This document shows, in pieces, positions 1 through 24,415 of a DNA stretch of 25,524 nucleotides. The notes below the pieces were generated by a model that worked only from the letters and a program-made list of their open reading frames with translations, made no database searches and had not been told where the DNA came from. Where the stretch lies: the NCBI GenBank assembly GCA_003133185.1, contig PKWF01000275.1:1-25524 (forward strand), in the 5' to 3' direction. This stretch comes from Vulcanimicrobiota bacterium. Lineage in GTDB: Bacteria; Vulcanimicrobiota; Vulcanimicrobiia; Vulcanimicrobiales; Vulcanimicrobiaceae. The position numbers and the translations under genes are program-made. Numbering within the stretch: the stretch's first letter is position 1; each line of letters begins with the position of its first letter.

Positions 1-1290
1 GGCGTCAAATGGAGCGATGGATGGCCGGTCACTTCCGCGGACGTCCTTTTTACGTTGAAAGCAATCCTCGATCCGCGCAATCCCGTGCGTTCGCACGAAG
101 GCTACGACCTGATCGATCGGGCCTTCGCGCCGGGACCCGGCATCGTTATCCTTCACCTGCGGCAGCCGTGGGCGCCCGCCGCAACGACGTACTTTTCGTA
201 CGGCCTCTCGCCGCAGTTCGTTCTGCCGGCGCACGTGTTGCGAGCACAGTCACCGTTGGAGCGGGCCACTTTTAATGCAGAACCCGGCGTTGGCGACGGT
301 CCGTATCGTTTTGTGTCGTGGAGACGCGGCGAAGGGCTGCGATATGTCGCCAATTCGCGCTACTGGCGCGGCAAGCCCGCGGTCGCAACGCTGGCGATTC
401 GAACGATTCCCGACCCTTCGACCAATCTGCTTTTGCTGCAATCGGGCGAACTGGATTGGAATCTGCTCGCTCCCGCTCAGTTGGCCGTCGTGCGTGGCGA
501 TTCAAACTTACGTTTCGTTACCGTGCCGACCGCCGTCGTGGCCGGACTGGCGCTGAATACCGAGCACGTGCCGCTCGATAATCCCGTCGTGCGCCGCGCG
601 CTTGCAATGTCGATCGATCGCGGGGAAATCTCGAAGAAGATCACGCTGGGGATCTATCCGGTGACCGACATGATCCAGCCGCGGTTTTCGTGGGCCTTCG
701 ATCCAACGGTGCGCGAGCCCGGCTTCGATGCGGCGCGCGCCGATCGCCTCTTCGATGAGGCGGGTTGGCGGCGTGGCTCCGATGGAATGCGGCGCCGTGA
801 CGGAACCGTGTTACGGCTCGTCTACGTGCAGTTTCCCGAGTCGACGACCGGCGTGCGCGTCGCGACAGCGGTTCAGTCTGCGCTGCGCGAGCGCGGCATC
901 GACGTCGCGGTGAAGTCGGTTAGCAACGCCCAGCTCTTTCTGCCGCGAACCGGCGTCCTCGCAACGGGCAATTTCGACCTCGCCTACGTGCCATGGACGA
1001 TGGGCGCCGATCCTGACGACTCTTCGGTTCTGCGCTGCCGTGCGACGTCGAACTACATGCGGTGGTGCGACGCCAGAGTCGACCGCCTCGAAGACGAAGC
1101 GCTCTCGCAGACCGATCTTTCCCGGCGCAAACGCCTCTATCGCGAGATCGCGACGATCGTCGCGGAGCAAGTTCCGATCGTCTACCTATTCAACGCCGAT
1201 TACGTGTACGCGTATCGTAAGCGTCTGCGCGGATTTTCTCCCAACGCCTTCCTACCGACGTGGAACGCATACGACTGGCGCTTGAAGTGA
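1..1290 (+). CDS. Peptide-type ABC transporter substrate-binding protein, family 5 (5'-truncated by window)
   Basis: The reading frame is open from base 1, so the N-terminus and signal peptide lie outside the window; about 429 residues are visible. It would be the extracytoplasmic solute receptor of an oligopeptide/dipeptide/nickel-type ABC importer (SBP_bac_5, the OppA/DppA family). Near the left edge the frame reads WSDGWPVTSADVLFTL, the family motif G-x-P-[LV]-[TS]-A-x-DV. The middle holds the typical stretch NPVVRRALAMSIDR (positions about 580-625). The C-terminus has the usual DPDDSS segment followed by VPIVYLFNADYVYAYRKRLRGF, here broken by no stop, and ends with WNAYDWRLK. The substrate cannot be told from sequence. 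No permease or ATPase gene follows: the next gene is convergent, so any transporter partners must lie upstream. The family call is firm and the ligand is unknown. Confidence 0.9.
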   Translation, partial: GVKWSDGWPVTSADVLFTLKAILDPRNPVRSHEGYDLIDRAFAPGPGIVILHLRQPWAPAATTYFSYGLSPQFVLPAHVLRAQSPLERATFNAEPGVGDGPYRFVSWRRGEGLRYVANSRYWRGKPAVATLAIRTIPDPSTNLLLLQSGELDWNLLAPAQLAVVRGDSNLRFVTVPTAVVAGLALNTEHVPLDNPVVRRALAMSIDRGEISKKITLGIYPVTDMIQPRFSWAFDPTVREPGFDAARADRLFDEAGWRRGSDGMRRRDGTVLRLVYVQFPESTTGVRVATAVQSALRERGIDVAVKSVSNAQLFLPRTGVLATGNFDLAYVPWTMGADPDDSSVLRCRATSNYMRWCDARVDRLEDEALSQTDLSRRKRLYREIATIVAEQVPIVYLFNADYVYAYRKRLRGFSPNAFLPTWNAYDWRLK

Positions 1291-1320
1291 ACGAAGCCTT
1301 TCGCCGAGCCTCGATAGCGT

Positions 1321-2745
1321 TCACGCCGGTTCTTGTGGAGAGCCGCTCTTTGAGCCAACGCGCTGAGGCGGTCCGACCTTTCGCAAAAGGTCGCGAAAGC
1401 GTTGACTGCCGGAGATCGGCTCGAACCAACGCGCGCTCTTGAGGAGCGGCAGCGTGGCTTCACGATCTTCGTAAGCCCTTTCGAGGTAGGCCATCGCTTC
1501 CTCCACGCGCCCCAAACCGGTTGCGACGATCGCCAGGTTCCACCAGACGACATAATCAGTTTGCGCCATCGAGCACAATCTGGTAAAGATGCTTTCCGCC
1601 CGCGCCGTATCGCCAAGGTCGGCATAGGCGCGCCCAAGCATCGGTAAACGGAAGCTGGGATCCTCGGAACGTTCCTGCGGAAGAAGCTCGAGATCGCTAA
1701 TGGCCTTTTCCGGCTGACCCTGGAGGAGGTAGGCCTGCGCGCGATAGCGCCGGGCGACGTAGAAGCCTCGATCCGTTTTCAAGAGGCTCGACATTATCTC
1801 GATCGCATTGGTGTAGTAGCGGGAGTGAACGAGCACGCGAGCGAGCAGCAACTGCAGGTGAAGCGACGACGGTTCCATAACGAGCGCAAACTGCGCTTGC
1901 TCGAGCGCGTCCGCATAGCGCCCGGTACAGACGTGCAGCCAGGCGGCATTGCTTCGAACGAATGCCGAGCTGGGATTGAGCCGAATCGCGAGATCGATCT
2001 CGTCCTGGGCGCCCTTCCAATCCCAATCACAGAAGCAGCGAATTCCCGAGCGGACGGCGTGCGCGCCGGCGGATGCGGAATCGATTGCGAGGGCTCGAGC
2101 GATCACTTTCTTGGCTGTAGGAAACGCAACGCTCGCAGGAACGTGCCAATAGACGGCAAGCAACGCGTGTGCGCGAGCCAGGGCGATCAGCGCGGGTAAG
2201 TAGTTCGGACTCGCACGCAGCGCGGCTTCGAAGAACTCGATCGCGCGCCATATCGCCGGAGCGGTGCGCTGTTCGATGAAAAAGCTGCCTTGGCAGTAGT
2301 TTCCAAACGCGTCGACGTCGCCGGGCGCCAGGACGTCGCTTACTCCCAGCGGCTCGAAGGTCAGCGATTCGTTGGCCCTGGGAACCGCTTCGGTGACGGG
2401 CGGCGCGAGCCGATAACCGCTCCGGGGGACGGAGAGCACGTAGGAATGATCGCGCGCTCGTTCACCGAGGAGGCGACGAAGCATGTACACGTGCTGCGCC
2501 AAGTTCCCATCGGTGACCGCCTCGTGCGGCCAGAGGCTTTCGGCCAGGGCCTCTTTCGTAACGACCGCACCGTTGGCGGCGATGAGTTCGGTGAGAAGCA
2601 GCGCAAGCCGTTCGGGGATCGGAGCTGCCGCGTCACTCTTAAAGAGGATCCGCCGCGATAGATCAAAGCGGAACTCCCCAAAGCAGTAAATGCGTGAGGA
2701 TCCTCGGAAGGATCGCGAGTCCACGGGAAGGGCGCTCGTGCTCAC
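1321..2745 (-). CDS. Winged-helix DNA-binding regulator with C-terminal TPR repeats (paralogue A)
   Basis: The protein has 474 residues. The N-terminus (about residues 19-112) is an OmpR/ToxR-type winged helix (Trans_reg_C): CFGEFRFDLSRRILF, the conserved SLWP, the recognition-helix region NLAQHVYMLRRLLGE and the wing SVPRSGYRL. The remainder is alpha-helical with TPR-like units (ALARAHALLA, LHVCTGRYADALEQA, AIVATGLGRVEEAMAYLERA). No receiver domain or membrane segment is visible. This order resembles HilA-type soluble regulators rather than CadC/ToxR. The start is GTG, only 3 nt after the stop of the small membrane protein gene at 2749-3078, so it should be the third gene of the PadR operon. 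It shares long blocks with the protein at 17285-18625, including the identical string LLPQERSEDPSFRLP. Its targets and signal are unknown; the domain call is firm. Confidence 0.88.
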   Translation of the reverse strand: MSTSALPVDSRSFRGSSRIYCFGEFRFDLSRRILFKSDAAAPIPERLALLLTELIAANGAVVTKEALAESLWPHEAVTDGNLAQHVYMLRRLLGERARDHSYVLSVPRSGYRLAPPVTEAVPRANESLTFEPLGVSDVLAPGDVDAFGNYCQGSFFIEQRTAPAIWRAIEFFEAALRASPNYLPALIALARAHALLAVYWHVPASVAFPTAKKVIARALAIDSASAGAHAVRSGIRCFCDWDWKGAQDEIDLAIRLNPSSAFVRSNAAWLHVCTGRYADALEQAQFALVMEPSSLHLQLLLARVLVHSRYYTNAIEIMSSLLKTDRGFYVARRYRAQAYLLQGQPEKAISDLELLPQERSEDPSFRLPMLGRAYADLGDTARAESIFTRLCSMAQTDYVVWWNLAIVATGLGRVEEAMAYLERAYEDREATLPLLKSARWFEPISGSQRFRDLLRKVGPPQRVGSKSGSPQEPA

Positions 2746-4266: not shown

Positions 4267-5175
4267 ATGATCGCGAGAACGGCATGGCTGCTCGCCTTAC
4301 TTTTGCTCGCCGAATGGCCTGGGCAGTCGGCGGCGCAATCGGGGACGGCTAAAAAGAACGATCGTTGGCCCGCGTTTTCGCCCGACAGTCGAGCGATCGC
4401 CTTCGAGCGATCTCAGGGAAAGAGCCTGGACATTTACGTTATCGGTGTCGACGGAACGGGCTTGCGACGTTTGACGCGCGAAGCGCCCGGCGTGCTCGCC
4501 ATGAGTCCGGCGTGGTTTCCCGATGGCCGGCACATCCTTTACACTACGACCGTTCCGGCGTCGGATTATCCGAGCGGTTCCTTTTTCACGATCCCGAGCG
4601 GCGGAGGCGAAGCGCGCGCGTTGGGTCCCGCCGGCGCGAGGGCTCACAGCATCAGTCCCGACGGGACGTCCATTCTATTTCTGACGAAGAGCTGGGCGAT
4701 CGCTCGGTTTGATATCGCTACTGCGTCGGTTACGGTGTTGGATATTCCTGGCAGCGGCACATGGGATACCGAGGGGGCGTGGTCGCACGACGGCGCAGAA
4801 ATTGCTTTCGGCTGCAACTTTTCGCCCAACGACCGCGTTAGCCGATCGGACATCTGCGTGATGCGGGCAGATGGCTCGAATCGACATATCGTCGCACGTC
4901 GTGCCGACGCGGGCGAGTGGCCGGCGTGGTCGCCGGACGGTACCCGGCTCGCGTTTCAGGCCGACAGCGAAGGCTTTTCGCAAGGTTCTATCGTCGTCGC
5001 CGACCTTGCGGACGGTACCGCTAACGACATCAGCCGAGCAACGGGCTACGCGCTAAACGAAACCCCGGCGTGGTCGCCCGACGGACGATGGATCGCATTT
5101 CAGGTGAAAGCTCGGGACGGTTATCGCATTGGCGTGATGCACCCGAACGGCTCCGGATTCCGGCTGCTTACCTAG
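4267..5175 (+). CDS. Exported TolB-like beta-propeller (PD40 repeat) protein
   Basis: The protein has 302 residues. Residues 1-24 form a Sec signal peptide (hydrophobic LLALLLLA, cleavage likely after SAAQ or just before). The rest is a series of WD40-like PD40 units marked by SPD(G/S)-x-x-(I/L)-(A/L)-F: FSPDSRAIAF, FPDGRHILY, SPDGTSILF, SHDGAEIAF, SPDGTRLAF and SPDGRWIAF. Six repeats fit one six-bladed propeller as in the C-terminal half of TolB, but the TolB N-terminal domain is missing, so it is not TolB itself. It is probably periplasmic or surface exposed and may bind a protein or ligand. It lies 5 nt downstream of the HD-protein gene and ends 15 nt before a convergent gene. Confidence 0.87.
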   Translation: MIARTAWLLALLLLAEWPGQSAAQSGTAKKNDRWPAFSPDSRAIAFERSQGKSLDIYVIGVDGTGLRRLTREAPGVLAMSPAWFPDGRHILYTTTVPASDYPSGSFFTIPSGGGEARALGPAGARAHSISPDGTSILFLTKSWAIARFDIATASVTVLDIPGSGTWDTEGAWSHDGAEIAFGCNFSPNDRVSRSDICVMRADGSNRHIVARRADAGEWPAWSPDGTRLAFQADSEGFSQGSIVVADLADGTANDISRATGYALNETPAWSPDGRWIAFQVKARDGYRIGVMHPNGSGFRLLT

Positions 5176-5190
5176 CGCTAGCGCGCGACT

Positions 5191-5742
5191 TCAGGGAATA
5201 CTAGAAGGACAAGAGCGTCTCGGGCGCTGCATCTGTTCGCCGCCGCAGTTGCGGCAGATGCCGCCGGATGCGCGGCTGCACGCGGCGCAAAACGTGCACT
5301 CGTACGAGCAAATGTACGCCTCGTCGAACGCTGCGAGCGGGCGCGCGCAGCGTTCGCAGGAGCCTTTCATCGCAAGGCCTAGTTTGCTTTCGATAGGAAC
5401 CGCGAATCGGTAGCCTTTGCCCGGAAGCGTAACGATGTAGGTGTGGTCGCCGGCGTTTTCGCCCAGGAACCCGCGCAGCATGAACACGTGCTGCGTTAGA
5501 TTGGCATCGGTCACCGGAGCGTCGGGCCACAGCCGGTCGAAGAAGACCCGTTTTTCGACAAGGCGGCAGTTCGCCTCGAGCAAAAGCACGAGAATCTGAA
5601 AGAGCTTCTCCGGTAACGGTTTGATCTCTGACCCGGAGAGTAAACGCCGGTGAGCGACGTCGAGCAGGTAGCGCCCGAAGCGATATGTCAAGGCTATATT
5701 GCTCTCAGAAGAGTTCGGCCCCGGCGGCTCCATCATCTGCAT
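5191..5742 (-). CDS. Winged-helix regulator fused to a DUF1272 zinc ribbon
   Basis: The protein has 183 residues. Residues about 20-115 are an OmpR/ToxR-type winged helix: RFGRYLLDVAHRRLL, the DRLWPDAPVTDANL segment, QHVFMLRGFLGE and the wing TLPGKGYRFAVP. Residues about 126-176 match the small cysteine-rich family DUF1272: C129-x2-C132, ICSYECTFCAAC (C145, C149, C152, C155), C163-x2-C166 with NCGGE, then a QRPRR tail. Eight cysteines are enough for two zinc sites. DUF1272 normally occurs as a stand-alone protein of roughly 60-80 residues; here it replaces the TPR region seen in the other three winged-helix proteins of the window. The start is uncertain between ATG at 5742 and ATG at 5736 or 5733. 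It converges with the propeller gene. It may be a metal- or redox-sensing regulator (inference). Confidence 0.85.
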   Translation of the reverse strand: MQMMEPPGPNSSESNIALTYRFGRYLLDVAHRRLLSGSEIKPLPEKLFQILVLLLEANCRLVEKRVFFDRLWPDAPVTDANLTQHVFMLRGFLGENAGDHTYIVTLPGKGYRFAVPIESKLGLAMKGSCERCARPLAAFDEAYICSYECTFCAACSRASGGICRNCGGEQMQRPRRSCPSSIP

Positions 5743-5790
5743 CGCCGTTACTTCGAAGAGATCTTGCCTGGTGTCCTCGTCGACGCGAAA

Positions 5791-5819
5791 GATATCAAGT
5801 TTTTCTCAAGTGACGTCAC
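5791..5819 (-). promoter_or_regulatory. Possible promoter with GTGACGTCAC palindrome upstream of the winged-helix/DUF1272 gene
   Basis: GTGACGTCAC at 5810-5819 is a perfect 10-bp palindrome. Read on the minus strand, its GTGACG half can serve as a -35 (4 of 6 matches) with GATATC (5796-5791) as a weak -10 after 17 nt, about 49 nt upstream of the start codon. The palindrome would overlap the -35, a natural place for an operator. The promoter match is modest. Confidence 0.4.
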
Positions 5820-5831
5820 GGCCGAGCGTGC

Positions 5832-5864
5832 AAAGGAGCGGGCCCGAAGGTCCGCTCCTTTTTT
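5832..5864 (-). terminator. Hairpin terminator behind the TonB-dependent receptor gene
   Basis: Arms at 5832-5844 and 5849-5861 pair over 13 positions with one G-T wobble. The four-base loop reads TTCG on the minus strand closed by C-G, the extra-stable UUCG tetraloop, which favours a role for the minus-strand receptor mRNA ending 28 nt earlier. A six-T run is present only in the plus-strand reading; the minus-strand reading has an upstream A run and only TTT after the stem, so it may work in both directions. Confidence 0.75.
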
Positions 5865-5892
5865 GCTACTCCGGAGCGCGCGCGAGGCTTTG

Positions 5893-8800
5893 TTAGATTT
5901 TGACCTGCGCGTTGAAGTAGAGGTTGATCGGAGGAGCTGCCGCGCCGATCGCACCGTTGTTGAGGCCGGAGGGTAGGTAGCTCTGTGTCCAAGGCGTGGA
6001 AGCCTTGTTGGCTGCGCGGTCACCGATGCCGGTGCCGTTGTAGAAGTTCGACGGATAGAGCGTGCTGTTAAGCGCGCCGCCCGCCGGCAGATATCCGCAG
6101 GCCACATTGCTGGGAGGATTCGCGGCCGTCCACGGCTCGGCCGTGCCTCCGAAGCACGTGTGGAAGAGATTCGCACCCAAGAGCGACAGCCGAATCGATG
6201 GGCTTACGTCGTAAGCAATCTGGAGATTACCTATGACGGAGCTGGGTTGTTCGATGTTGTCGAATGCGAACGAGCCCGTCTGCGGATTGGGGATGTAGAG
6301 GAAGCCAAACTGACCGAACCCAGCTGCAGTCGTGGTGAGGTAGTTGCACTGCAGGGGATTGGTTTTCGGCGAGACCTTCGTGATGCCGGTTGCCGCCGAG
6401 TTCATCGTGCACGAACGCGGATCGAGCCCGTTGACGTCGAGCGGAGTGCCGTAGAATCCACCGGTTTGGAATGAGAAGCTGGGAGTGATCGTCAGCTTGT
6501 CATGACGATAGTTGAGTATGAGCGAAGTGACGTACGGCGAGATGTAACTCCCGAGCACGCCGCTCAGGCTGGGTGCGATGGCGGTCGTGTATGGATTGTA
6601 CCAGCCGCCGGTATTGAGCAGTCCTTGCGGAGACTGATTGTAATACGGGTTCAGAATGGTGTCTTGAGTTTTCAGGTTTTTCGCGCTACAGGGGACGCCG
6701 TTTAGGCCTTGATAGCACGGACTGCCGCCACCGGCCTTGGTCAGCTGATTGTAGGCGGCGATCACCTGGTTCAGCACGGTCACCGCGTTTGGAACGACGC
6801 CGCCCGTACTGAGCGGTACGTTTTGGAACTGCACCTTCGAGTTCGTGTAGGTGAAGGCCAACTGCCCGGAGAGACCGTTGCGGGTGAAATCACCCTTGTT
6901 GAACTGAAACTCGGCGCCCTCGTTACGATTGACGCCGACCGGCACCTGCGTTACGAAGCCCGCGCCGATGAAGGTCTGCTGTTGCCAGCCGTTGACCCAC
7001 GTATAGAAGGGTGTCAGTTTGAAACTCATGTCGGTTCCGCGGAGGTGCTGTTCGAGCGAAAGGTCGTACTGATCCGACGAGATTCCGGGAATCGGGTGGA
7101 AGGGTGAGTAGAAGCCGAGGTTCATCGTGCTGGCCCAGACTGAGCGCTCGTCTCCGGTGCTGCTCAGGTACTGAACCGACGCTGAAATTGGCGGTTGCGT
7201 GAAGCGACCGGCCGAAGCACGGATGACCGTGTCCTGTGAAGCCGTGTAGGTTGCCGAGAATCGCGGTTCCCAGTAGTCGAGTGAGTACGACGCCGGCGAG
7301 CTGGCGGTGAAGTTCGGCGCCACAACGCCGTTCTGGGTGGTGCCATTAGGATGGACCCAGCCAGTCTTTGGTCCAGTCTTATTGAGAATCGCGGCGGCCG
7401 CATCGCAGTTCCCGTCGACATATTGCGCTGCTGCCGGTGGGAGCGCCCCGGGCGGCAACGGCTGCGTCAGCACTTGATTGGTCGATGCAAGCACGCACGT
7501 GTAGTTGGCAGTTTGATTCGCGTAGAAATCGGTTGCGGCCGTGGCCGAATCGGGTAGATCGTAGGTGAAGTTGTCGTAACGCAGCGCGGCGTTGATCAAG
7601 AAGCGATCGTTGGGACGGAATTGGTCGCTCAACGAGAAGTTGGTAAACCGCGGCTTCACCGCGTTGTATGAGCCGGTAGCGTTTCCAGTCCAGAGACTGT
7701 CCCAGGCCGCGCTCGCGGGCCCACCAAAGCCCGTTGGACCGCTCCCCGCGGTGCTCAACCAGCCACAGGGTGCTGGATTACTCGTCGTGTCGCAGCCGCT
7801 GCCAAAGACGCCACTGGGGTTCACGGTCGTCTTGAGCGCCACGTCGTAATAGCTGCTCGACAAGCAGGCTTCTGTCTTGCCGCTATGGGCGTCGTAGCAC
7901 TTGCCGGCTCCCAAGTTCGCATAGCCGATCGGGGAGCAGACGTTAACCCCATATCCGCCGGCCGGGTTACAGCCCGAGTACGCGGAGAGGTTGTTGAAGC
8001 GAATGACGCCGGCGGACGTGTAGTTTCCATCCAGACTGACGAGATTTTGGTCGTTCAATTGGTCCTGAAAATCGAGCGCCCCGCCCGACGTATGCGTTTC
8101 GAGTTGATACTGCGCCGCGATTGCCGACGGTATGTACTCTTGCGTAGCTCCGAAGGCCGTCGAGTTTTCAAGCCAATCGGAGTAGAACGTATAGCCATAA
8201 GCTCGGAGATATGCCGATTGACTCAGCGCGTAGGTGTATTGGAGTTTCGTGACGCCCGTGTCGTTTTGGTTCACGTTTTGAGATTGATCGTTGACCGGGA
8301 TCGGTGCGTCGAACGCGTGGGCCGGAGTGTTGGGAGCCGCGTACACTCCCGGAGACTTGATCGACGTGGCGCTTCTGGCGATCGGCGTGCCGAACGGCAC
8401 GTTGTAGGCGACGTTGTCGGCGTACGCCAGATAACTGGGAGCGCAGCCGATGAATGCTCCGGATGCCTGGTTGCAAAGATAGGGCCCGCCAAAGAACGGT
8501 GACGCCGTCTCGAGTGCTGCAATCTGAGAGCAGTTCGGATAGCAGGGCGGGAGGCCGCCGTAGCCCGGCGAGTTTCCGCAGCGATTGACATTTAGGCCCG
8601 GCGCGATCGCTCCCACGCTGCACGCCGGCGTTTGCGCCGTCGTGCCAAAGAGCGAGTAGATGAACTGATTGTTGCCCGGCCCGTAGTCGTTCGGGCTTTG
8701 ATAGAAGTAGTTATCAAGGGCGGATGCGCTCCAGAGCACCTGTACGTCGTCGCGCAGTCCGTTCGCTTTTGGAATCCCCATATGCAGATTTATGACGTCT

Positions 8801-9957
8801 TCACGATCCGCAATCTGCGACGGATTGGCCGAGAGGCCGTTGTAGTATTGCCAGCAGCCTTGTTCGGGGAACGTGAACTTGGCCCCAACCAAAGGACAGA
8901 TTGGCTTTACGCCCTGGCAGGTACCGAAAACGCAGGTTGGACTGGTACCTAAGATCTGGTTACTCCCTTCACCGTAGCCCAGGAAAGCGCCGAGCGTGTT
9001 GCCGGAGAAAACGCCGCCCGGCGTCATATAGCCGGCGCCGTTCTGGTTGTCGAGAACTCGATAGTCCTGGTTATATCCTAGGAGGGCGACGTAATAGCTG
9101 AAGTTACGGTCGGGGGTTGCGCCTCCGATTTCAACCGAGGCTTGGTGGTAGTACTGTGGGGTTGCGATGCCCAGGTTGGCCGTGGCGAAGCCCGGGAACG
9201 TACCGGTCTTGATGACCTGGTTGATGAAGCCGGCCGTACCGGCCGACGCAACCGACGCCGGACCGCCGCCCGTGTAGACCTGCAGTTCCGAGAGACCGAG
9301 GCTTGACTCGGTCGACGAGTTGTAGTTATCGAAGGCGCGGTTGACCGGAATTCCGTCGTATTCGAAACCGGTGTAGTAGGAGTTTTGACCGCGAACGTAC
9401 GCGGCGTTGAAATCCCAGCCCATGCCGCCTTGCGACGTCTGAACGCCGGGGACCGAGGCCATTGCGGAGTATGCGTTGTTGAGATTGCCCCCGCCACCGA
9501 GCGCTGCGGCCGCGGCGGCCTGTGCGGAGTTGACGCTATAGAGATCGGACCCGACGCCGGATTTCACGAGCGACGAGCCGGCTTGCGAGGTCACGTGCGC
9601 GATCGTTCGGAGCGTCTTGGTCATACGATAGGTGATCTGCTGCGTCTGATCGGCAAAGACCACGACGCCGGCGTCGGAGTAAGACTGATACCCGTCCTTA
9701 CTAATGCTGACGGTGTACGTGTCGGGTGCGAGCGAGAGAATCGTAAAATGACCTCCCGCGTCGGTGGTCGCGGTCCGACTCCCCGAGGGCGCGACCGCCT
9801 GCACTTGCACGCCGGCAAGCGGTGCACCATTGGAATCAGTGATCGTGCCGTCGATGTTACCCGTGACACCAGCCAGTGCCCATGTTTCCTGGCCGACGAT
9901 CAACAGAAGCAACGTCGTCAGCGCAACCAGTGAACGCGGTAACGAAGTTCGTTTCAT
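5893..9957 (-). CDS. TonB-dependent outer-membrane receptor with N-terminal carboxypeptidase-regulatory domain
   Basis: The protein has 1354 residues. Residues 1-30 are a signal peptide (KRTSLPRSLVALTTLLLLIVG). Residues about 33-110 are a CarboxypepD_reg-like Ig fold (GNIDGTITDSNGAPLAGVQV, DAGGHFTILSLAPDTYTVSI). A plug region follows at about 120-255 (SMASVPGVQTSQGGMGWDF, FEYDGIPVNRAFDN, SAGTAGFINQVIKTG). The remainder is a long beta-barrel with aromatic-rich strands and very long loops, ending YFNAQVKI. It should import a large substrate across the outer membrane using TonB energy; no tonB/exbBD is in the window and the substrate is unknown. There are 24 cysteines, all in the barrel/loop part. 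A strong AAAGGAG lies 9 nt before the ATG. It is divergent from the HTH/repeat regulator at 10282. Confidence 0.92.
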   Translation of the reverse strand: MKRTSLPRSLVALTTLLLLIVGQETWALAGVTGNIDGTITDSNGAPLAGVQVQAVAPSGSRTATTDAGGHFTILSLAPDTYTVSISKDGYQSYSDAGVVVFADQTQQITYRMTKTLRTIAHVTSQAGSSLVKSGVGSDLYSVNSAQAAAAAALGGGGNLNNAYSAMASVPGVQTSQGGMGWDFNAAYVRGQNSYYTGFEYDGIPVNRAFDNYNSSTESSLGLSELQVYTGGGPASVASAGTAGFINQVIKTGTFPGFATANLGIATPQYYHQASVEIGGATPDRNFSYYVALLGYNQDYRVLDNQNGAGYMTPGGVFSGNTLGAFLGYGEGSNQILGTSPTCVFGTCQGVKPICPLVGAKFTFPEQGCWQYYNGLSANPSQIADREDVINLHMGIPKANGLRDDVQVLWSASALDNYFYQSPNDYGPGNNQFIYSLFGTTAQTPACSVGAIAPGLNVNRCGNSPGYGGLPPCYPNCSQIAALETASPFFGGPYLCNQASGAFIGCAPSYLAYADNVAYNVPFGTPIARSATSIKSPGVYAAPNTPAHAFDAPIPVNDQSQNVNQNDTGVTKLQYTYALSQSAYLRAYGYTFYSDWLENSTAFGATQEYIPSAIAAQYQLETHTSGGALDFQDQLNDQNLVSLDGNYTSAGVIRFNNLSAYSGCNPAGGYGVNVCSPIGYANLGAGKCYDAHSGKTEACLSSSYYDVALKTTVNPSGVFGSGCDTTSNPAPCGWLSTAGSGPTGFGGPASAAWDSLWTGNATGSYNAVKPRFTNFSLSDQFRPNDRFLINAALRYDNFTYDLPDSATAATDFYANQTANYTCVLASTNQVLTQPLPPGALPPAAAQYVDGNCDAAAAILNKTGPKTGWVHPNGTTQNGVVAPNFTASSPASYSLDYWEPRFSATYTASQDTVIRASAGRFTQPPISASVQYLSSTGDERSVWASTMNLGFYSPFHPIPGISSDQYDLSLEQHLRGTDMSFKLTPFYTWVNGWQQQTFIGAGFVTQVPVGVNRNEGAEFQFNKGDFTRNGLSGQLAFTYTNSKVQFQNVPLSTGGVVPNAVTVLNQVIAAYNQLTKAGGGSPCYQGLNGVPCSAKNLKTQDTILNPYYNQSPQGLLNTGGWYNPYTTAIAPSLSGVLGSYISPYVTSLILNYRHDKLTITPSFSFQTGGFYGTPLDVNGLDPRSCTMNSAATGITKVSPKTNPLQCNYLTTTAAGFGQFGFLYIPNPQTGSFAFDNIEQPSSVIGNLQIAYDVSPSIRLSLLGANLFHTCFGGTAEPWTAANPPSNVACGYLPAGGALNSTLYPSNFYNGTGIGDRAANKASTPWTQSYLPSGLNNGAIGAAAPPINLYFNAQVKI

Positions 9958-10281
9958 GCGAATGGCTCCTTTAAAGCAGCGTCAGTGCTACCGAAGCACT
10001 TGCGTTAATGCGCAACGGTGTGCGCATCGAGGAACCATTTTGTTGGTGCTTGCCTCTTCCTATAAACCTGAGCAAAGTGTCGCGTTGGTGGTCACTTTTA
10101 ATCGAAGCCGGCGGTAAGCCGCATATCAAAGGATATCAAAAGCAACGGTATCGCGCGCACGTCGAGATTGATGATTATGTGATGACTGCGTTCGCTAATG
10201 CCTCTATACTTGCAGCCTGTGGTCATAGCTGCACCTTCGTTATGGTATTCGGGCAGCCGCGGCGAGTCGCAACAGCTCGGA
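9958..10281. promoter_or_regulatory. Divergent control region between the TonB receptor and the HTH/repeat regulator
   Basis: This is a gene-free stretch of about 324 bases. Near the receptor start, on the minus strand, two adjacent small hairpins can form in the leader: TTGCG/CGCAA (10015-10000) and GTGCT/AGCAC (9999-9985). At 10123-10140 an 8-bp direct repeat ATATCAAA occurs twice with a 10-bp period, one helical turn, which suits a protein binding site. On the plus strand TATAAA (10061-10066) preceded by TTGTTG at 15 nt, or TATACT at 10205-10210, are the best -10 candidates for the regulator. All are weak individually. The region is likely to hold both promoters because the genes diverge. 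Confidence 0.5.
9966..9972 (-). promoter_or_regulatory. Ribosome binding site of the TonB-dependent receptor gene
   Basis: The minus strand reads AAAGGAG, 8 nt before the ATG at 9957. It is one of the strongest Shine-Dalgarno matches in the window and fixes the start of the receptor. Confidence 0.85.
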
Positions 10282-12060
10282 ATGGAAGCCGAAGTTCGCC
10301 GCTTGTTGCGGCGGGCGTACGATCCATTTCGACTAGGGGCGTTCCCGCTGGCTCAAGCGTTGTGTGAGGTAACGGGCATCGCCAACCCGGAAGCGGCGTT
10401 GCGGCACGTCATCGACAAAGCGTTCCAAGAAGATTGGCAAGAGGAGCGGCTGCGGCATCTGCTGTTGCCGCCCGATAAGGGCAGCGACGGAACGAGGCGC
10501 GAAGCCGCTCAACGATTGCAGATTTCGACGCGGCACATTCAGCGCCGGCGTGCCAAAGCCGTCTCGATCCTGGCCCTTCACATTCGGAAGCTCGTCGGAG
10601 CACCACCGTCAACTGCGGCAGGGGATCGCGAGCGAGATCCCGACCCGCTGGAAACGATTGCGGAGATCGTCTCCGACATCGAGCCCGATACCGCGGCGAA
10701 TATCTTTCGCCTCGGAAATCCGCAATCGGCGGCGCGAGCCAACCTGATTGCGATGCGCGCGTGCGTTGACGCGGGCGCCGAGGTCGCGACGGCCGGCGCG
10801 CAATCCGAGCCATCCAACTTCTCGCCGCTCGTCGCGATCCTGCGTGCTCAGTCGAAGGAGCTCGGCGGGAAGCCGGACGAGGCCGCGCGCGAGCTTTTGC
10901 CGTTGTTCACTCGAGCCGCGCGCGACCGCGCGACCGACCCCGAAGCGCGGTTTGAACTGGAGTGGCTTGAGTTTCTACGGGCCCGTCAACGCGGCAGCGC
11001 GCCGCAGATGCAACGCGTCGCAACGAACTTGGAACGAGTCGCAGACGGTCATTCCGCGTGGCTCGGGCGCGCGCTTCGGGCTGCGGCGGAGGCGCGGATT
11101 CGATGCGGCCGGCTGCAAGACGCGGCCGCCCTTCTGAAAGAGGCGGACCGCTACGCCGTGCGCAGTTTTGCGGTTCGGCAACTGGCTTCGAGCAGCGTCC
11201 TGAAAGCGGAGATTGCTTTCCAGTCGGGCGACGCGATCGCGGCAGAGCGGCTGGCCACCGGCGCCTACATGATTCTTCGGGGACGGCATCGCGATGCATA
11301 TCGGTGTCAGACGATCGTAGCGCGTGCTCGGTTACGGCTCGGTAAACCCTGGACGTGCCCCGAAGACGCCGGAAACCTTTCAACCGCGACGTGGGATGGC
11401 GTGGCCGTCCAGATCGAGTGTGCGCGCCATCTCGCCAATCGCGGCCGTGGCGAACGCGCTCGGAAGCAGTCAACTGCCGCCTACGAGGCGGCGTTGACGC
11501 TAAAGTACGGTGGGCTCGCTGCGCGGGCCGCAGCGGCAGTCGGCGCCACCTTTGGAAAAGGCACGCCGCAGCGGCGCGATTGGTACCTGCGCGCACTCGC
11601 TGCGCTGCTCGCTACCCGCGACCGCTCCATCGCGTGCGATCTTTTCGTGCGCGAGAAGGGACGAGGAGATATGGGACCCTTCGAAGCCTTCGATACGGGC
11701 GTTTCGGAGATGCTGTATGCTGGACTGCAGAGCGCGATCCCGCACTTGCGCAGAGAGTCGCAAGCGCAAAGTAGGGCGGCGCGCGCCTTTCTGAAGCACT
11801 TGGGCACGTACGTTTTGGGATTTACGTCGCTCACGCGGGAGTTAGATGAAGCCATCGCAACCGTCGCGAGCTCTGGTTCGTTCGCTCAATACATGCTGCA
11901 CTTCCTCGACGACGCAACCGATGTTCTCGAGGTGGCCTTCGCAGCGACTGTCGCCGCCGCCCAGCGGCCAGAAAGCGATCGCCGGCTCACCGCCGCTCTT
12001 CGCGCCTTCGCGCAAGCCGTGCGGCCGCGGGAAGACATCAGAGCATTTCTCGTTGGGTGA
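10282..12060 (+). CDS. HTH regulator with long alpha-helical repeat region
   Basis: About 592 residues from ATG 10282. The N-terminal 105 residues form a helical domain that ends in a helix-turn-helix resembling sigma-70 region 4 or a Mor-like fold (RREAAQRLQISTRHIQRRRA, about residues 73-92). The remaining 480 residues are alanine/arginine-rich helices that look like degenerate TPR units (LRAAAEARIRCGRLQDAAAL, VLKAEIAFQSGDAIAAERLA). No membrane segment is seen. In-frame starts at 10198 (ATG) and 10219 (GTG) would add up to 28 residues that do not look like a domain; none has a clear Shine-Dalgarno, so the start is uncertain. It diverges from the TonB receptor and heads the protease cluster, so it may control either (inference). 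No named family is recognised. Confidence 0.75.
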   Translation: MEAEVRRLLRRAYDPFRLGAFPLAQALCEVTGIANPEAALRHVIDKAFQEDWQEERLRHLLLPPDKGSDGTRREAAQRLQISTRHIQRRRAKAVSILALHIRKLVGAPPSTAAGDRERDPDPLETIAEIVSDIEPDTAANIFRLGNPQSAARANLIAMRACVDAGAEVATAGAQSEPSNFSPLVAILRAQSKELGGKPDEAARELLPLFTRAARDRATDPEARFELEWLEFLRARQRGSAPQMQRVATNLERVADGHSAWLGRALRAAAEARIRCGRLQDAAALLKEADRYAVRSFAVRQLASSSVLKAEIAFQSGDAIAAERLATGAYMILRGRHRDAYRCQTIVARARLRLGKPWTCPEDAGNLSTATWDGVAVQIECARHLANRGRGERARKQSTAAYEAALTLKYGGLAARAAAAVGATFGKGTPQRRDWYLRALAALLATRDRSIACDLFVREKGRGDMGPFEAFDTGVSEMLYAGLQSAIPHLRRESQAQSRAARAFLKHLGTYVLGFTSLTRELDEAIATVASSGSFAQYMLHFLDDATDVLEVAFAATVAAAQRPESDRRLTAALRAFAQAVRPREDIRAFLVG

Positions 12061-17284: not shown

Positions 17285-18625
17285 ATGCTTGATTTGAAGG
17301 CGGCAACAGGCGGGTTCGGGAGATATTTCTTCGGAGAGTTCCGCCTGGATCCAGGTCGGCGGCTGCTGTTTAGGCAGTCGCAAGTGATACGAATCCCTGA
17401 GCGGATTCTTCAACTGCTGCTGATTCTTTTGGAAGCAAACGGCGGCGTCGTACAACGCGAGACGATCGCTTCGCGAGTTTGGCCCGACGCGGCCGTCGGT
17501 GACGGAAACATCGCTCAGCATATCTATATGCTGCGGAATATATTGGGGGAAGACGCCCGCGCGCTCGTCACGACCGTGAGCGGGCGGGGGTATCGCCTGA
17601 CCGTTCCCGTGACCTTCGAGGCGCCCAGTGGCGATTTGCGCGACGCGGCGAGCGACACGTTATGCAGCAGCGAACTGGAGCCGTTTCGGGACTACTGCCA
17701 TGGCAGCTATTTGCTCGAGCGATGCTCTGCGCCGGCGCTGACGGGGGCGGTAAGCGCCTTTAAGTCGGCGCTCGAGTGCAATGAAAACTACGTGCCGGCG
17801 CTCGTCGGCCTTGCCAGGGCCCACATGCTCCTCGCCGAGTACTGCCACGTTCCCGCTGCAAACGCTTTTGCCAAGGCGAAGGAGGCATTAAAGCAGGCCC
17901 TGACCCTCGACCCGTCGTCCGGGCCGGCGCGCGCGGCGCTCTCTGCCCTGTTGGTTCTCGCCGACTGGAACTGGAAAGGCGCGAAGTCCGAACTAGATAT
18001 TGCGTTGGCCCTCAGTCCGAACTCCTCGGTCGTACGGAATAGCGCAGTCCATTATCACGTCTGCACAGGCGAGTACGAGCGAGCACTCTTCGAGGCGCAA
18101 CATGCCTTGATGATGGAGCCGTCGTCGCTATCGCGTCAGCTGCTGCTTGGGACGGCCTTAATTCATGCGGGGCAGTATCGGAAGGGGATCACTTGCATAT
18201 CGAAACTGATCGAGAGCGACGAAAGCTTCTATGTTGCAAGGCGCTGGCGCGCGCTGGCATTTCTTCTCGACGGACAACCGGAGCAGGCTTTTACCGACCT
18301 GTTGTTGCTGCCGCAGGAGCGCTCGGAAGATCCGAGCTTTCGTCTTCCGCTGCTGGCCCGAGCGTACGCGGATTCGGGAGAGCGCGGTCGCGCCGAGCAG
18401 ATCTACGCGCAGCTGCAAGCGATGGCGGTCACGGACTACGTCGTGTCGTGGAATCTCGCAATCGTGGCGGCTGCGCTCGGCCGAGATGACGAGACGCTGG
18501 CTCACCTCGAGCGCGCGCTTGCGGCGCGCGAGCCAACATTGCCGTTCCTCAAGAGCCTTCCATGGTTCGCTTCGATCGCCGGGCGGCCGAGGTTCAAAGA
18601 GATCTGCCGCATCGTCGGACCGTAA
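17285..18625 (+). CDS. Winged-helix DNA-binding regulator with C-terminal TPR repeats (paralogue B)
   Basis: The protein has 446 residues. The winged helix is at about residues 11-105 (FFGEFRLDPGRRLLF, SRVWPDAAVGDGNIAQHIYM, wing SGRGYRLTVPV). It is followed by TPR-like helices (ALVGLARAHMLLAEYCHV, YHVCTGEYERALFEAQHAL, NLAIVAAALGRDDETLAHLE). It aligns along its whole length with the protein at 1321-2745: the shared string LLPQERSEDPSFRLP, WNWKGA versus WDWKGA, and HVCTG and MEPSSL in the same places. By eye, about half of the aligned residues match. There is no receiver domain or membrane segment. The start ATG is weakly supported by an AGG. It lies alone between the serine hydrolase and a convergent propeller gene, so its target may be elsewhere. 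Confidence 0.88.
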   Translation: MLDLKAATGGFGRYFFGEFRLDPGRRLLFRQSQVIRIPERILQLLLILLEANGGVVQRETIASRVWPDAAVGDGNIAQHIYMLRNILGEDARALVTTVSGRGYRLTVPVTFEAPSGDLRDAASDTLCSSELEPFRDYCHGSYLLERCSAPALTGAVSAFKSALECNENYVPALVGLARAHMLLAEYCHVPAANAFAKAKEALKQALTLDPSSGPARAALSALLVLADWNWKGAKSELDIALALSPNSSVVRNSAVHYHVCTGEYERALFEAQHALMMEPSSLSRQLLLGTALIHAGQYRKGITCISKLIESDESFYVARRWRALAFLLDGQPEQAFTDLLLLPQERSEDPSFRLPLLARAYADSGERGRAEQIYAQLQAMAVTDYVVSWNLAIVAAALGRDDETLAHLERALAAREPTLPFLKSLPWFASIAGRPRFKEICRIVGP

Positions 18626-18634
18626 TCGTCGCCG

Positions 18635-19948
18635 TTACCGGATTGCGTAGAGGGTTCCGTCGCCGCTGCCGATGTACAGCGTCCCGTCGGCGATCGCCGG
18701 CGCGCCGACGATGGAGCCGAGCTCAAAGATGCGGTCGAGTCCGACGATGATACCGTTGAGCGTTCCATTGGGGTAGAAACCGTTCAAGTCGAGAGCCCCG
18801 CGCGCATCGAGATGCGTGCGGCGATTCTTGCGCGCTCCGTCGGTCTCAAACGTCGCGAGGGTCTTCCCGGTGCGCGCATCGACCCCGTACAGCAAGCCGT
18901 CGAAGACGCCATAATAGGCGACCCCGCCGGCGATTGACGGCGACGAGTATGCGAATGTGCCATACTTGGAGCGAAAGCGTTCGCGGCCGGTCTTGGCGTC
19001 GAGCGCAAAAAAGATGTGCTCGTCGGAAGTGGTGAAGTACACCGCGCCATCATAGAGTGCCGGCGACCCGATCACCCAGCTCCCGTGCTCGTCGTGCTTC
19101 CAGAGAAGGGCGCCGTCGCGCGCGTCGAGTGCATAGAGGTGGCTATCGCGACACCCGAAGTAGACGATACCGTCGGCAACCGCCGAGGAACTCACGATTC
19201 CGATTTGATTATGGATGACCCGATCGTCACCGGTGAGAAACTTCCATCGGAGCGCGCCCGTTGCAGCGTCGAGCGCGTAGAAATAGCGATCGAAGCTCCC
19301 AATGTAGACGACGCCTCCGGCGATAGCCGGCGAAGCGTGTACGACGTCGCCGGTCGTGAACTTCCAGCGCAGCGCTCCGGTCGTGGCGTCGATCGCGTAC
19401 ACGTTGTGGTCGCCACTGCCAATATAGAGCGTTCCATTATCGATCGCGGGCGAGGAGATGAACAGATCGAACGGGTCCGGCATCATCTCGTTCTTGGGGA
19501 TGATTCCGTGAATCCCGGGCGCGGTAAAGCGACGTTCGCCTCCAGTTTCGAATCGCCACCTGAGTTTGCCGCTCAACGCATCGAGCGCGTAGACGAAGCC
19601 GTCGAGACTCGCGGCGTAGAGCGTCGCATTCCACACCGCGGGCGACGAAGTCACCGGGCCCTTCGTATGAAAATGCCAGACCAGGCTGCCGTCGTCGCTT
19701 CGAACGGCAGAGATGTTTCCATCGCTACCTCCGACGAAGACCATCCCGTCAGCCACCGCGGGCGACGAAATGAAGCTGCCGTTTACGTGATAGCGCCAGC
19801 GGACGGAGTGCAACGTCGGCGCGGCCGATTGGAAGACGCCGAGGTGCGCGGCGTCGCTGCGAAACATCGCCGCGCTGGGTTGCGCGGCAGTAGCCGAACT
19901 TAGGAAGAACGGAGCGGCGCAAACGGCGATGAGCCGAGCCAGCTTCAT
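18635..19948 (-). CDS. Exported PQQ-type beta-propeller repeat protein
   Basis: The protein has 437 residues from ATG 19948, set by a clear signal peptide (KLARLIAVCAAPFFLSSATA) and an ATGA overlap with the upstream regulator. The mature protein consists of eight similar units with the pattern SSPA(V/I)-x-x-G-x-(V/L)-Y-x-G-S-x-D-x-x-(V/L)-YA-(V/L)-D-A-x-(T/S)-G-x-x-x-W, for example YALDAATGALRWKF and YAIDATTGALRWKF. This is the PQQ_2/PQQ_3 fold shared by quinoprotein dehydrogenases and by BamB-like scaffold proteins. I see no dehydrogenase catalytic Asp/Glu context or adjacent cysteine pair, so a non-enzymatic binding or scaffold role is as likely as a redox one. It is the second gene of a coupled pair with a winged-helix/TPR regulator. 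Confidence 0.88.
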   Translation of the reverse strand: MKLARLIAVCAAPFFLSSATAAQPSAAMFRSDAAHLGVFQSAAPTLHSVRWRYHVNGSFISSPAVADGMVFVGGSDGNISAVRSDDGSLVWHFHTKGPVTSSPAVWNATLYAASLDGFVYALDALSGKLRWRFETGGERRFTAPGIHGIIPKNEMMPDPFDLFISSPAIDNGTLYIGSGDHNVYAIDATTGALRWKFTTGDVVHASPAIAGGVVYIGSFDRYFYALDAATGALRWKFLTGDDRVIHNQIGIVSSSAVADGIVYFGCRDSHLYALDARDGALLWKHDEHGSWVIGSPALYDGAVYFTTSDEHIFFALDAKTGRERFRSKYGTFAYSSPSIAGGVAYYGVFDGLLYGVDARTGKTLATFETDGARKNRRTHLDARGALDLNGFYPNGTLNGIIVGLDRIFELGSIVGAPAIADGTLYIGSGDGTLYAIR

Positions 19949-21285
19949 GACGGTGACCCGGGCCGGCCGTACAGCCGCGCCGGATCCAGGTCGAGTTCCT
20001 TCACCAGAGGTTCTACGCGAAGGTGCGTGTACCAGCACTCTCGATTATCACCGCAAACTTCGATGTACCGCAGGGCGGCTTCACCGTTCTTGCGGCCGAT
20101 CTCCGCGAGAGCGAAGCACGTGGCAGGCACGAACTGCGATTCGGCAAGGCGCGCCAAGCGCTCCAGCGTGCTTTGCGCGGTTTTCGTATCGCCCATCCGA
20201 AAGCGCGTGTAGAGGGCGTACCCCTCGGCAAAATAGCGGGCGTTCATCTGGCGATCGACCAGCGGATCGTACGCAGAAAGTCGGACTCCATCAAAGTGTT
20301 CCAGAGCTCGATCGGGTTCCCCAAGCAGCAACAAGGCGAGGCCCAAAAAAGTCCGGGCAAACCAATAGTCGGGCCATCGTTTGCACGTAGCCTCGAGTTG
20401 CGCCGCGGCGGCAGCATAATCCCCGGAAAACAACGTCGTGATTCCACGGCAGGCTTGAATAATATTCATGTTTGAAACATGGGAAGGTAAGGACTCGGTG
20501 AATGCCAGCGATTCGCTAAAGCGGTTCGAGAGTGCGAGGATCCAGCCGTACATGAACGCTGCGATGCGATCGGTTGCGTCGAGTTCGAGCGCGCGCCGAG
20601 CAATTGCAAGAGCACCGGCGAAATCCCAACAATAGTCGATCTGTACCTTGCACGACGCCATGAGCGCGTCCACGCAGTTGGGATCGGCCGCTAGGGCGTT
20701 TTCGGACTGACTCTTCGCAAGCTCGAGCTGATTCCTCGGGCGGTCGTACTGAAAGTCGGCCACGAGGACCCGAGTCAACGCCGCGCCGGCGAGCGCTTTA
20801 GCGCTGGTTGGGTCGATGGCCAGCGCGCGATCGTACAGATTGAGCGATGCGACCAAGGCGGCCGGGCTCGCGGAGTTCCGAAACTCCGCGCCGGCGACGC
20901 AGTACTCGTTCACAACACTGTTTATGAACGGTGACGGGCGTTCCGTAACGTCAGCGGTGAAGCGATAACCGTGTCCGTAATCGGTGGCGATGTATCGTTG
21001 CGTTCGGTTCTCTCCCAGGGCGTGCCGTAGCATCAACACATGCTGCCGCAGCGTGGCGTCGGTTAGATCCTTCTTATCGTCCCACACCGTCGACATGATC
21101 TCGTCGACGCTCAGCGTTACTCCCGCGTTGCTCACGAGAGCGCACAGCAGGTCGAGCGCCTTTCCCGTAACGTGAACCGGGACACCCTGACGGAACAGGC
21201 GACGGAGAGACAAGTCGAGAGCAAAAGGCCCGAAGTAGAAGACCCTGCGGGCGTTTGGGCTCTCCTCGGATAGGCGAGTCGCCAC
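19945..21285 (-). CDS. Winged-helix DNA-binding regulator with C-terminal TPR repeats (paralogue C)
   Basis: The protein has 446 residues from GTG 21285, with GGAG a few bases upstream. The winged helix lies at about 15-112 (YFGPFALDLSLRRLFRQ, STVWDDKKDLTDATLRQHVL, wing TDYGHGYRFTADV). A TPR-like region follows (LYDRALAIDPTSAKALAGAA, SENALAADPNCVDALMA, LALLLLGEPDRALEHFDGV). It is more distant from paralogues A and B than they are from each other and lacks their LLPQERSEDPSF block. Its stop overlaps the start of the PQQ-type propeller gene (ATGA), so regulator and exported propeller are made together. No receiver or membrane segment is seen. Target and signal are unknown. Confidence 0.87.
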   Translation of the reverse strand: MATRLSEESPNARRVFYFGPFALDLSLRRLFRQGVPVHVTGKALDLLCALVSNAGVTLSVDEIMSTVWDDKKDLTDATLRQHVLMLRHALGENRTQRYIATDYGHGYRFTADVTERPSPFINSVVNEYCVAGAEFRNSASPAALVASLNLYDRALAIDPTSAKALAGAALTRVLVADFQYDRPRNQLELAKSQSENALAADPNCVDALMASCKVQIDYCWDFAGALAIARRALELDATDRIAAFMYGWILALSNRFSESLAFTESLPSHVSNMNIIQACRGITTLFSGDYAAAAAQLEATCKRWPDYWFARTFLGLALLLLGEPDRALEHFDGVRLSAYDPLVDRQMNARYFAEGYALYTRFRMGDTKTAQSTLERLARLAESQFVPATCFALAEIGRKNGEAALRYIEVCGDNRECWYTHLRVEPLVKELDLDPARLYGRPGSPS

Positions 21286-22935: not shown

Positions 22936-23243
22936 TTACCGTCACCCTTGCGCCGGAACATTTGCAGCATTCGCTCGGTTACCGCGAAGCCGCCGAAGAC
23001 GTTGATCGCTCCGAGTGTTACCGCCGCAACCGAAAGCGTCGTGAGCAGTGGACCGTGCGTTACGCCGGCCAGCGCGGCAACGATCACGATCGCTCCGGCG
23101 AGTACGATTCCGTGGATCGCGTTGGTGGCCGACATCAAAGGCGTGTGCAGCGTCGTCGGCACCTTGGAGATCACTTCGAATCCCACGAAGACCGCGAGCA
23201 GAAGCACGGTAAGAGGGCCGACGAGACTAGCGAGTTCGTTCAG
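22932..23243 (-). CDS. pntAB: NAD(P) transhydrogenase alpha subunit, membrane part (PntA2)
   Basis: The protein has 103 residues if started at CTG 23243. It has three hydrophobic segments and the family signature SKVPTTLHTPLMSATNAIHG, then GAINVFGGFAVTERMLQMF. It is the membrane domain of the split alpha subunit and helps form the proton channel with PntB. A GTG at 23207 would drop 12 residues, including part of the first helix. CTG is preferred for three reasons: AGGAGG (23255-23250) lies exactly 6 nt before it, it overlaps the pntA1 stop as CTGA, and the resulting N-terminus NELASLVGPLTVLLLAVF starts where relatives do. Use of CTG as a start is rare, so this needs protein-level proof. It is in an operon with pntA1 and pntB. 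Confidence 0.9.
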   Translation of the reverse strand: MNELASLVGPLTVLLLAVFVGFEVISKVPTTLHTPLMSATNAIHGIVLAGAIVIVAALAGVTHGPLLTTLSVAAVTLGAINVFGGFAVTERMLQMFRRKGDGK

Positions 23244-24358: not shown

Positions 24359-24415
24359 TGGTCGGGTCCTCTCATACGGCCCCAACGCGACGGCGCCCTT
24401 CGCACGACGGCGCGA

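Follow-up and report, generated by a model that had tools for sequence, protein, structure and literature searches.

What does a DUF1272 domain do when it is carried at the end of a DNA-binding protein? The question is raised by one gene in a 25,524-nucleotide stretch of DNA from a Vulcanimicrobiota bacterium (GenBank assembly GCA_003133185.1, contig PKWF01000275.1; the whole stretch is referred to as the window), in which a single reading frame joins an OmpR/ToxR-type winged helix to DUF1272. The fusion is genuine and recurs in related bacteria. The reading that we tentatively prefer, at a little under an even chance, is that the protein is a one-chain regulator in which DUF1272, a predicted zinc domain, forms the docking or effector half; its probable target is the adjacent gene for a TonB-dependent receptor. 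The gene and its parts are:

5191..5742, minus strand: fusion gene, winged helix plus DUF1272, 183 codons (open reading frame (ORF), both Pfam domains, homologues)
5389..5688, minus strand: OmpR/ToxR-type winged helix, residues 19-118
5359..5388, minus strand: joint, residues 119-128 (alignment)
5215..5376, minus strand: DUF1272, residues 123-176, with eight cysteines and an R-P-R-R end (Pfam, alignment)

The first-pass annotation had described a single unbroken gene of this length here without naming its strand, and its coordinates are correct. Both halves exceed their Pfam cut-offs: Trans_reg_C (PF00486) at residues 43-113 with an E-value of 1.8e-11 (44.4 bits against a cut-off of 26.2), and DUF1272 (PF06906) at residues 123-176 with an E-value of 5.6e-18 (65.2 bits against 25.3). 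The assignment of the first half to the OmpR/ToxR type stands, as the protein is of this type by profile score and by fold alike, and in the structural model the winged helix begins at about residue 19. The complete DUF1272, previously placed at residues 126-176, starts slightly earlier in the profile search, and its eight cysteines (C129, C132, C145, C149, C152, C155, C163 and C166) lie exactly where they had been reported. At a Pfam threshold of E ≤ 0.1, Trans_reg_C and DUF1272 are the only matches, so that the N-terminal receiver domain characteristic of OmpR/PhoB response regulators was not found. Nor was a membrane helix or periplasmic part seen: DUF1272 follows directly after the winged helix and the helices of the model reach at most 14 residues, although a dedicated membrane predictor was not run. 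In ToxR and CadC the winged helix is followed by a membrane segment and a periplasmic part, and in HilA by a TPR-like part; the fusion differs from these receiverless OmpR-type regulators (PF00486) in having DUF1272 at that place.

Homologues were gathered from protein databases through shared short words, which biases the collection towards conserved motifs. Among the 85 matches at E ≤ 1e-3, both Pfam domains are present in 83, and the joint between them is kept down to about 50% identity. The remaining two are P0084, a winged helix without DUF1272, and P0085, which has no Pfam domain and seemingly represents a different reading frame. Within the phylum, one reading frame spans both halves in seven of 149 genomes (G000, G020, G043, G051, G059, G070 and G110), which fall in two families of one class. 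The co-occurrence of Trans_reg_C and DUF1272 across genomes, proposed as a check by the first-pass annotation, is confirmed by both counts. In G059 and G020 one stop codon lies within the match; because the ORFs there end straight after the RPRR tail, it is a natural stop.

The state of the window's genome (68% complete, 2.9% contaminated, 307 contigs), together with the lack of an intact fusion in other members among the 18 genomes of the genus searched, might suggest a product of sequencing, frameshift or binning. Such an origin is nevertheless extremely improbable, and the homologues already refute it, since the identical joint occurs in nearly all database matches and in seven genomes. The contig belongs to the genus, because its gene at 23240-24385 shares 96% identity with its counterpart in the congener G003 and 95% with that in G016. 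Furthermore, a broken piece of the fusion's winged helix survives in the congener G013 (L168, 6119-6310; residues 4-67, 61% identity), and the fusion gene is therefore likely to be older than the species and to have been lost in places. Taken together, these observations rule out frameshift, chance and contamination as the source of the fusion, including the artificial joining of two genes that had been named as grounds for rejecting it.

DUF1272 is found across many phyla, with Caulobacter vibrioides among its carriers, and is matched in 41 of the 149 genomes. In the window's own genus it occurs in 12 of 18 genomes, in frame with a winged helix solely in that of the window. Two family members, G110 and G043, have fusion ORFs that also occur in named Eremiobacterota records (L034 = L039, L014 = L040), and by this kinship the phylum is the little-known Candidatus Eremiobacterota. 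When contigs of named records were searched with alignment A1, from which P0083-P0085 were excluded, a winged helix was in frame in two of 79 DUF1272 loci, both from Eremiobacterota, among the best 80 of 575 loci; a single-sequence query gave no match. The description of DUF1272 as normally free-standing accordingly holds for most loci, but the domain is also fused to several partners other than the winged helix. In protein searches, by our own profiles, 87 of 155 DUF1272 proteins also carry a winged helix (157 proteins fetched, a wider search included), and with the DUF1272 part alone as bait all 29 matches were winged-helix fusions, a region search that missed other fusion types and is not a census. 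Databases already carry such proteins under automatic names, such as "DUF1272 domain-containing protein" and "DNA-binding winged helix-turn-helix protein".

The way in which the two halves are joined is nearly constant. In an alignment of 83 fusions (the window protein and P0001-P0082), E118 and C129 are separated by 10 residues in 82 rows and by 11 in the other; every row has G122, L123 and M125, and 82 have K120. A linker of such uniform length suggests a rigid, fixed mount for DUF1272. Seven of the eight cysteines are invariant in these rows and C132 is a cysteine in 82, while among 75 free domains taken from other loci every one of the eight is retained in 74 or 75. Conservation extends beyond the cysteines: E130, E148, N165, G168, R173 and P174 are kept alike in fusions and free domains, which suggests one unchanged binding or functional face. 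The window protein has the eight cysteines, the conserved E, the N-C-x-G and the R-P of the family, and deviates at R164 and Q170, where most others have P and L. Because the cysteines are equally kept in free domains, alongside non-cysteine residues, we interpret the pattern as a zinc site with a structural role together with a binding face, and not as a cysteine-only switch. An internal start at the conserved M125, yielding a free DUF1272, is not favoured; many free proteins start M-A-L-E-M, with the second methionine at that place, and M125 is therefore read as a domain residue.

What DUF1272 replaces can be seen from the closest winged-helix relatives, three of which lie in the window itself:

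1321..2745, minus strand: winged-helix-TPR paralogue (Pfam, tree)
17285..18625, plus strand: winged-helix-TPR paralogue (Pfam, tree)
19945..21285, minus strand: winged-helix-TPR paralogue (Pfam, tree)

As had been stated, these three remaining winged-helix proteins carry TPR repeats. TPR families are numerous in their Pfam matches and absent from those of the fusion. An unrooted winged-helix tree was built from 62 rows (35 fused, 27 not), comprising loci rows and every third database protein. A supported branch (98/80) unites all 35 fused rows with 11 rows without DUF1272, including the three TPR paralogues, and the fused label changes twice on the tree against a shuffled mean of 20.3; a single origin of the winged-helix/DUF1272 fusion would be compatible with this topology. 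The proposal that the effector half had been exchanged is thus borne out to the extent that DUF1272 occupies the TPR position of these close, HilA-like relatives. Moreover, in 16 of the 17 rows lacking DUF1272 that were compared, the probable recognition helix shows more likeness than the remainder of the domain. The fusion and the TPR paralogues may share operators; recognition helices are, however, often the best-kept part of the domain anyway.

The cysteine spacing of DUF1272, C-x2-C-x12-C-x3-C-x2-C-x2-C-x7-C-x2-C, fits the eight-ligand pattern of RING domains. In a Foldseek search with the predicted fold, 45 of the 50 matches listed were RING/ZZ by title, and the fold matches are weak. Zinc binding by this half is predicted, and a RING-like fold is suggested by its likeness to the cross-brace RING/ZZ domains in ligand spacing and in these weak fold matches. 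The zinc ribbon designated earlier is one of two candidate folds for this cysteine-rich predicted zinc domain: the weak fold matches are mostly RING/ZZ, while the weak sequence matches are mostly zinc ribbons. UQ_con, the E2 family, is matched in none of the seven fusion genomes and likewise in none of 14 control genomes.

DUF1272 is also found at the C-terminus of proteins whose N-terminal domain is unrelated to the winged helix. An HTH2-DUF1272 protein used as query returned 80 protein matches. HTH2-DUF1272 fusions comprise 20 proteins (P0086-P0105, the last with a longer stretch separating the two parts), and two LytTR-DUF1272 fusions (P0133 and P0139) are confirmed by Pfam. HTH2 has no Pfam match, and it is in our reading a predicted DNA-binding helix-turn-helix family. 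All of these share with the window protein a C-terminal DUF1272 after a DNA-binding-type domain; indeed, recognised partners of this type always precede DUF1272, whereas enzyme fusions have the reverse order. In three loci of one genus (L124, 5696-6328; L125, 5975-6550; L126, 2628-3206) the HTH2-DUF1272 gene follows a same-strand membrane-protein gene, which is BrkB by Pfam in L125 and similar by eye in the other two.

Free DUF1272 proteins (PF06906) share the eight cysteines and the other conserved residues of the fusion, lack a DNA-binding domain and have a slightly negative mean net charge. Their neighbours were taken from heuristic ORF calls, one hand-picked per locus and mostly the nearest (68 of 141 upstream, 72 of 147 downstream), and no single conserved neighbour gene was found among them. 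Acyl-CoA dehydrogenase is the commonest upstream neighbour (5 of 68, with four sharing 77-89% identity with the fifth), and short-chain dehydrogenase the commonest downstream (4 of 72). The free DUF1272 of the window's genus lies in a phenylacetate-type cluster with PaaA/PaaC, PaaX and aldehyde dehydrogenase (L133, 7769-13130), and a parallel locus (L134, 9317-11289) contains enoyl-CoA hydratase. A free DUF1272 gene and a free winged-helix gene share 16 bp in G056 (L131).

The candidate target lies immediately upstream of the fusion gene, followed by a divergent gene:

5893..9957, minus strand: TonB-dependent receptor gene with carboxypeptidase-regulatory domain, plug and barrel (Pfam, ORF)
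10198..12060, plus strand: divergent HTH2 gene, its N-terminus (residues 29-133) in the HTH2 family, no Pfam match (similarity)

The receptor gene is 150 bp from the fusion gene, on the same strand. A scan of 5000-6100 returned no promoters and no terminators. A GC-rich hairpin of seven pairs with a loop of 10 was noticed by eye between the two genes (5835-5858), with a T run on its plus-strand side; it is absent from the terminator scan, whose loop limit is 8. Across the seven fusion genomes, a receptor adjoins the fusion gene in three and lies within 8 kb in a fourth. In G059 (L121) the receptor gene comes first, then the fusion gene and a winged-helix-TPR gene, with a 4-bp overlap between the fusion and winged-helix-TPR genes. 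The fusion gene of G051 (L122) converges with the end of a receptor gene; Pfam gives no domain for this 162-residue piece, which was identified through its resemblance to the receptor of the window. About 2 kb separate the receptor from the fusion gene in G070 (L119). A Plug domain occurs within 8 kb of three of the seven fusion genes, against 0.59 expected. A receptor gene is paired with a divergent HTH2 gene not just in the window but also in G000:C170 (L135) and G110:C98 (L145), where a winged-helix gene adjoins HTH2 in both cases; L143, L145 and L146 were chosen for having both gene types on one contig. The HTH2-type proteins divergent from the receptor (window 10198-12060, L135 7498-8991, L145 3942-5750) have no Pfam name. 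Because the gene at 10198-12060 starts with the HTH2 region, both kinds of DUF1272 partner lie side by side in the window.

From these features a mechanism can be proposed. The winged helix would bind operators, perhaps like those of the TPR paralogues, in the vicinity of its own gene or of the receptor gene, and DUF1272, standing in for the TPR half and mounted near the DNA-contacting wing, would turn one face towards a partner, which could be RNA polymerase, a TPR paralogue or another protein. That partner may also be bound by free DUF1272 proteins, and the receptor gene would come under the control of the fusion protein. Several lines of sequence evidence argue for this docking reading: domain scores over the cut-offs, the joint kept by the homologues and the constant linker; the C-terminal DUF1272 of LytTR and HTH2 proteins and the grouping of fused and TPR-type winged helices; and the gene overlaps in G059 and G056 together with the neighbouring receptor genes. 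The first-pass annotation had suggested a metal-, redox- or protein-sensing input, and of these protein docking fits best; metal or redox sensing is at most a possibility, and the cysteines are equally kept in free domains.

Several observations weigh against the docking reading or narrow it. DUF1272 stands at the extreme N-terminus of 27 proteins (in the range P0111-P0155), with at least 100 residues following, and 25 of these have a Pfam partner, mostly a small enzyme: SnoaL, OsmC, ArsC, GFA, GNAT, ABM, glyoxalase or cupin. In another 15 proteins it comes after at least 50 residues without a winged helix or HTH2: the two LytTR proteins, one Lrp, two LepA ends, one PF02621 match, one protein of a Thermoplasmatota archaeon and eight others. 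Given these N-terminal enzyme fusions and some C-terminal cases without a recognised DNA-binding domain, DUF1272 is not a regulator-only module. The Lrp case (P0134) was dropped as a likely frameshifted join, its Lrp match being partial and its inter-domain stretch unlike Lrp. A DUF1272-only tree (105 rows, 55 columns) is poorly resolved and does not reject a clade shared by the DUF1272 of winged-helix and of HTH2 fusions (p-AU 0.434), so that the architectures have separate joints without separate acquisition of DUF1272 following from this. The receptor association is modest and extends beyond the fusion: no receptor lies near the fusion in L120, L123 or L142 (the L142 contig ends 0.5 kb after the gene), and Plug domains also occur within 8 kb of 7 of 31 one-component-size winged-helix genes (2.8 expected), 7 of 48 response-regulator-size genes (4.1 expected) and 1 of 7 small ones (0.69 expected). 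An operator shared upstream of four receptor genes was not seen, with a mean column identity of 47%.

Eight cysteines beside a winged helix could instead form a redox or metal switch, in which zinc loss or cysteine oxidation alters DNA binding and the protein senses oxidant or zinc directly. RitR, an OmpR-type redox sensor, appears among the winged-helix fold matches by entry title, and some N-terminal DUF1272 partners (OsmC, ArsC, GFA and glyoxalase) are thiol- or electrophile-related by Pfam label. The other partners (GNAT, SnoaL, cupin and ABM) depart from the redox theme, and the cysteines are no less invariant in free domains, where many other residues are conserved too; we regard a switch as unlikely. 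Still less probable is an additional nucleic-acid contact, whereby the basic R-P-R-R tail and the zinc fold would lengthen the DNA footprint of the winged helix. The most doubtful of these alternatives makes DUF1272 a stabilising cap or a leftover of fused neighbours without a role of its own, the winged helix acting alone and perhaps competing with the TPR paralogues. Fusions of DUF1272 to neighbouring genes are frequent in the database, as the N-terminal cases illustrate, and the two LepA-end proteins (P0147 and P0156, the latter by Pfam labels alone) resemble simple joins with a neighbouring gene; unlike a relic, however, the winged-helix fusion has kept its joint, its linker and its domain residues through divergence to about 50% identity.

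The surroundings of the fusion differ from those of its congeners. In G003 and G016, the stretches corresponding to window 1-1298 and 21532/21544-25524 are separated by just 1.2 and 2.3 kb, indicating that about 20 kb (1299-21531) is extra here; in a third congener, G014, the contig ends at this place. The extra stretch contains all four winged-helix genes, the receptor gene and peptidase genes, and neither a tRNA nor a long repeat was found at its ends.

DUF1272 may be treated in a 2011 survey of RING and treble-clef domains in prokaryotes. Outside that survey, a literature search conducted mostly outside subscription journals found no function for DUF1272, no mention of PF06906 or COG3813 and no publication on the winged-helix/DUF1272 architecture evident by title. 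In PMC9653667, DUF1272 appears in a gene list.

The expectation that this protein would offer a functional hint for DUF1272 is upheld, as a real fusion to a regulator-type half gives a functional lead. One broader proposal, which we consider improbable at present, is that DUF1272 serves bacteria as a RING-like domain that docks to the transcription machinery, a C-terminal effector shared by OmpR winged helices, LytTR and HTH2, with the free forms as soluble adaptors binding the same partner. Its C-terminal ties to a winged helix, LytTR and a predicted helix-turn-helix domain make the "unknown function" testable, in that DUF1272 may be an effector or docking module on DNA-bound regulators. The fusion provides a natural construct for identifying the partner of free DUF1272, and the fixed joint and retained non-cysteine residues indicate which residues to change. 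If the docking or effector reading is true, it would be a first lead on the role of the widespread DUF1272.
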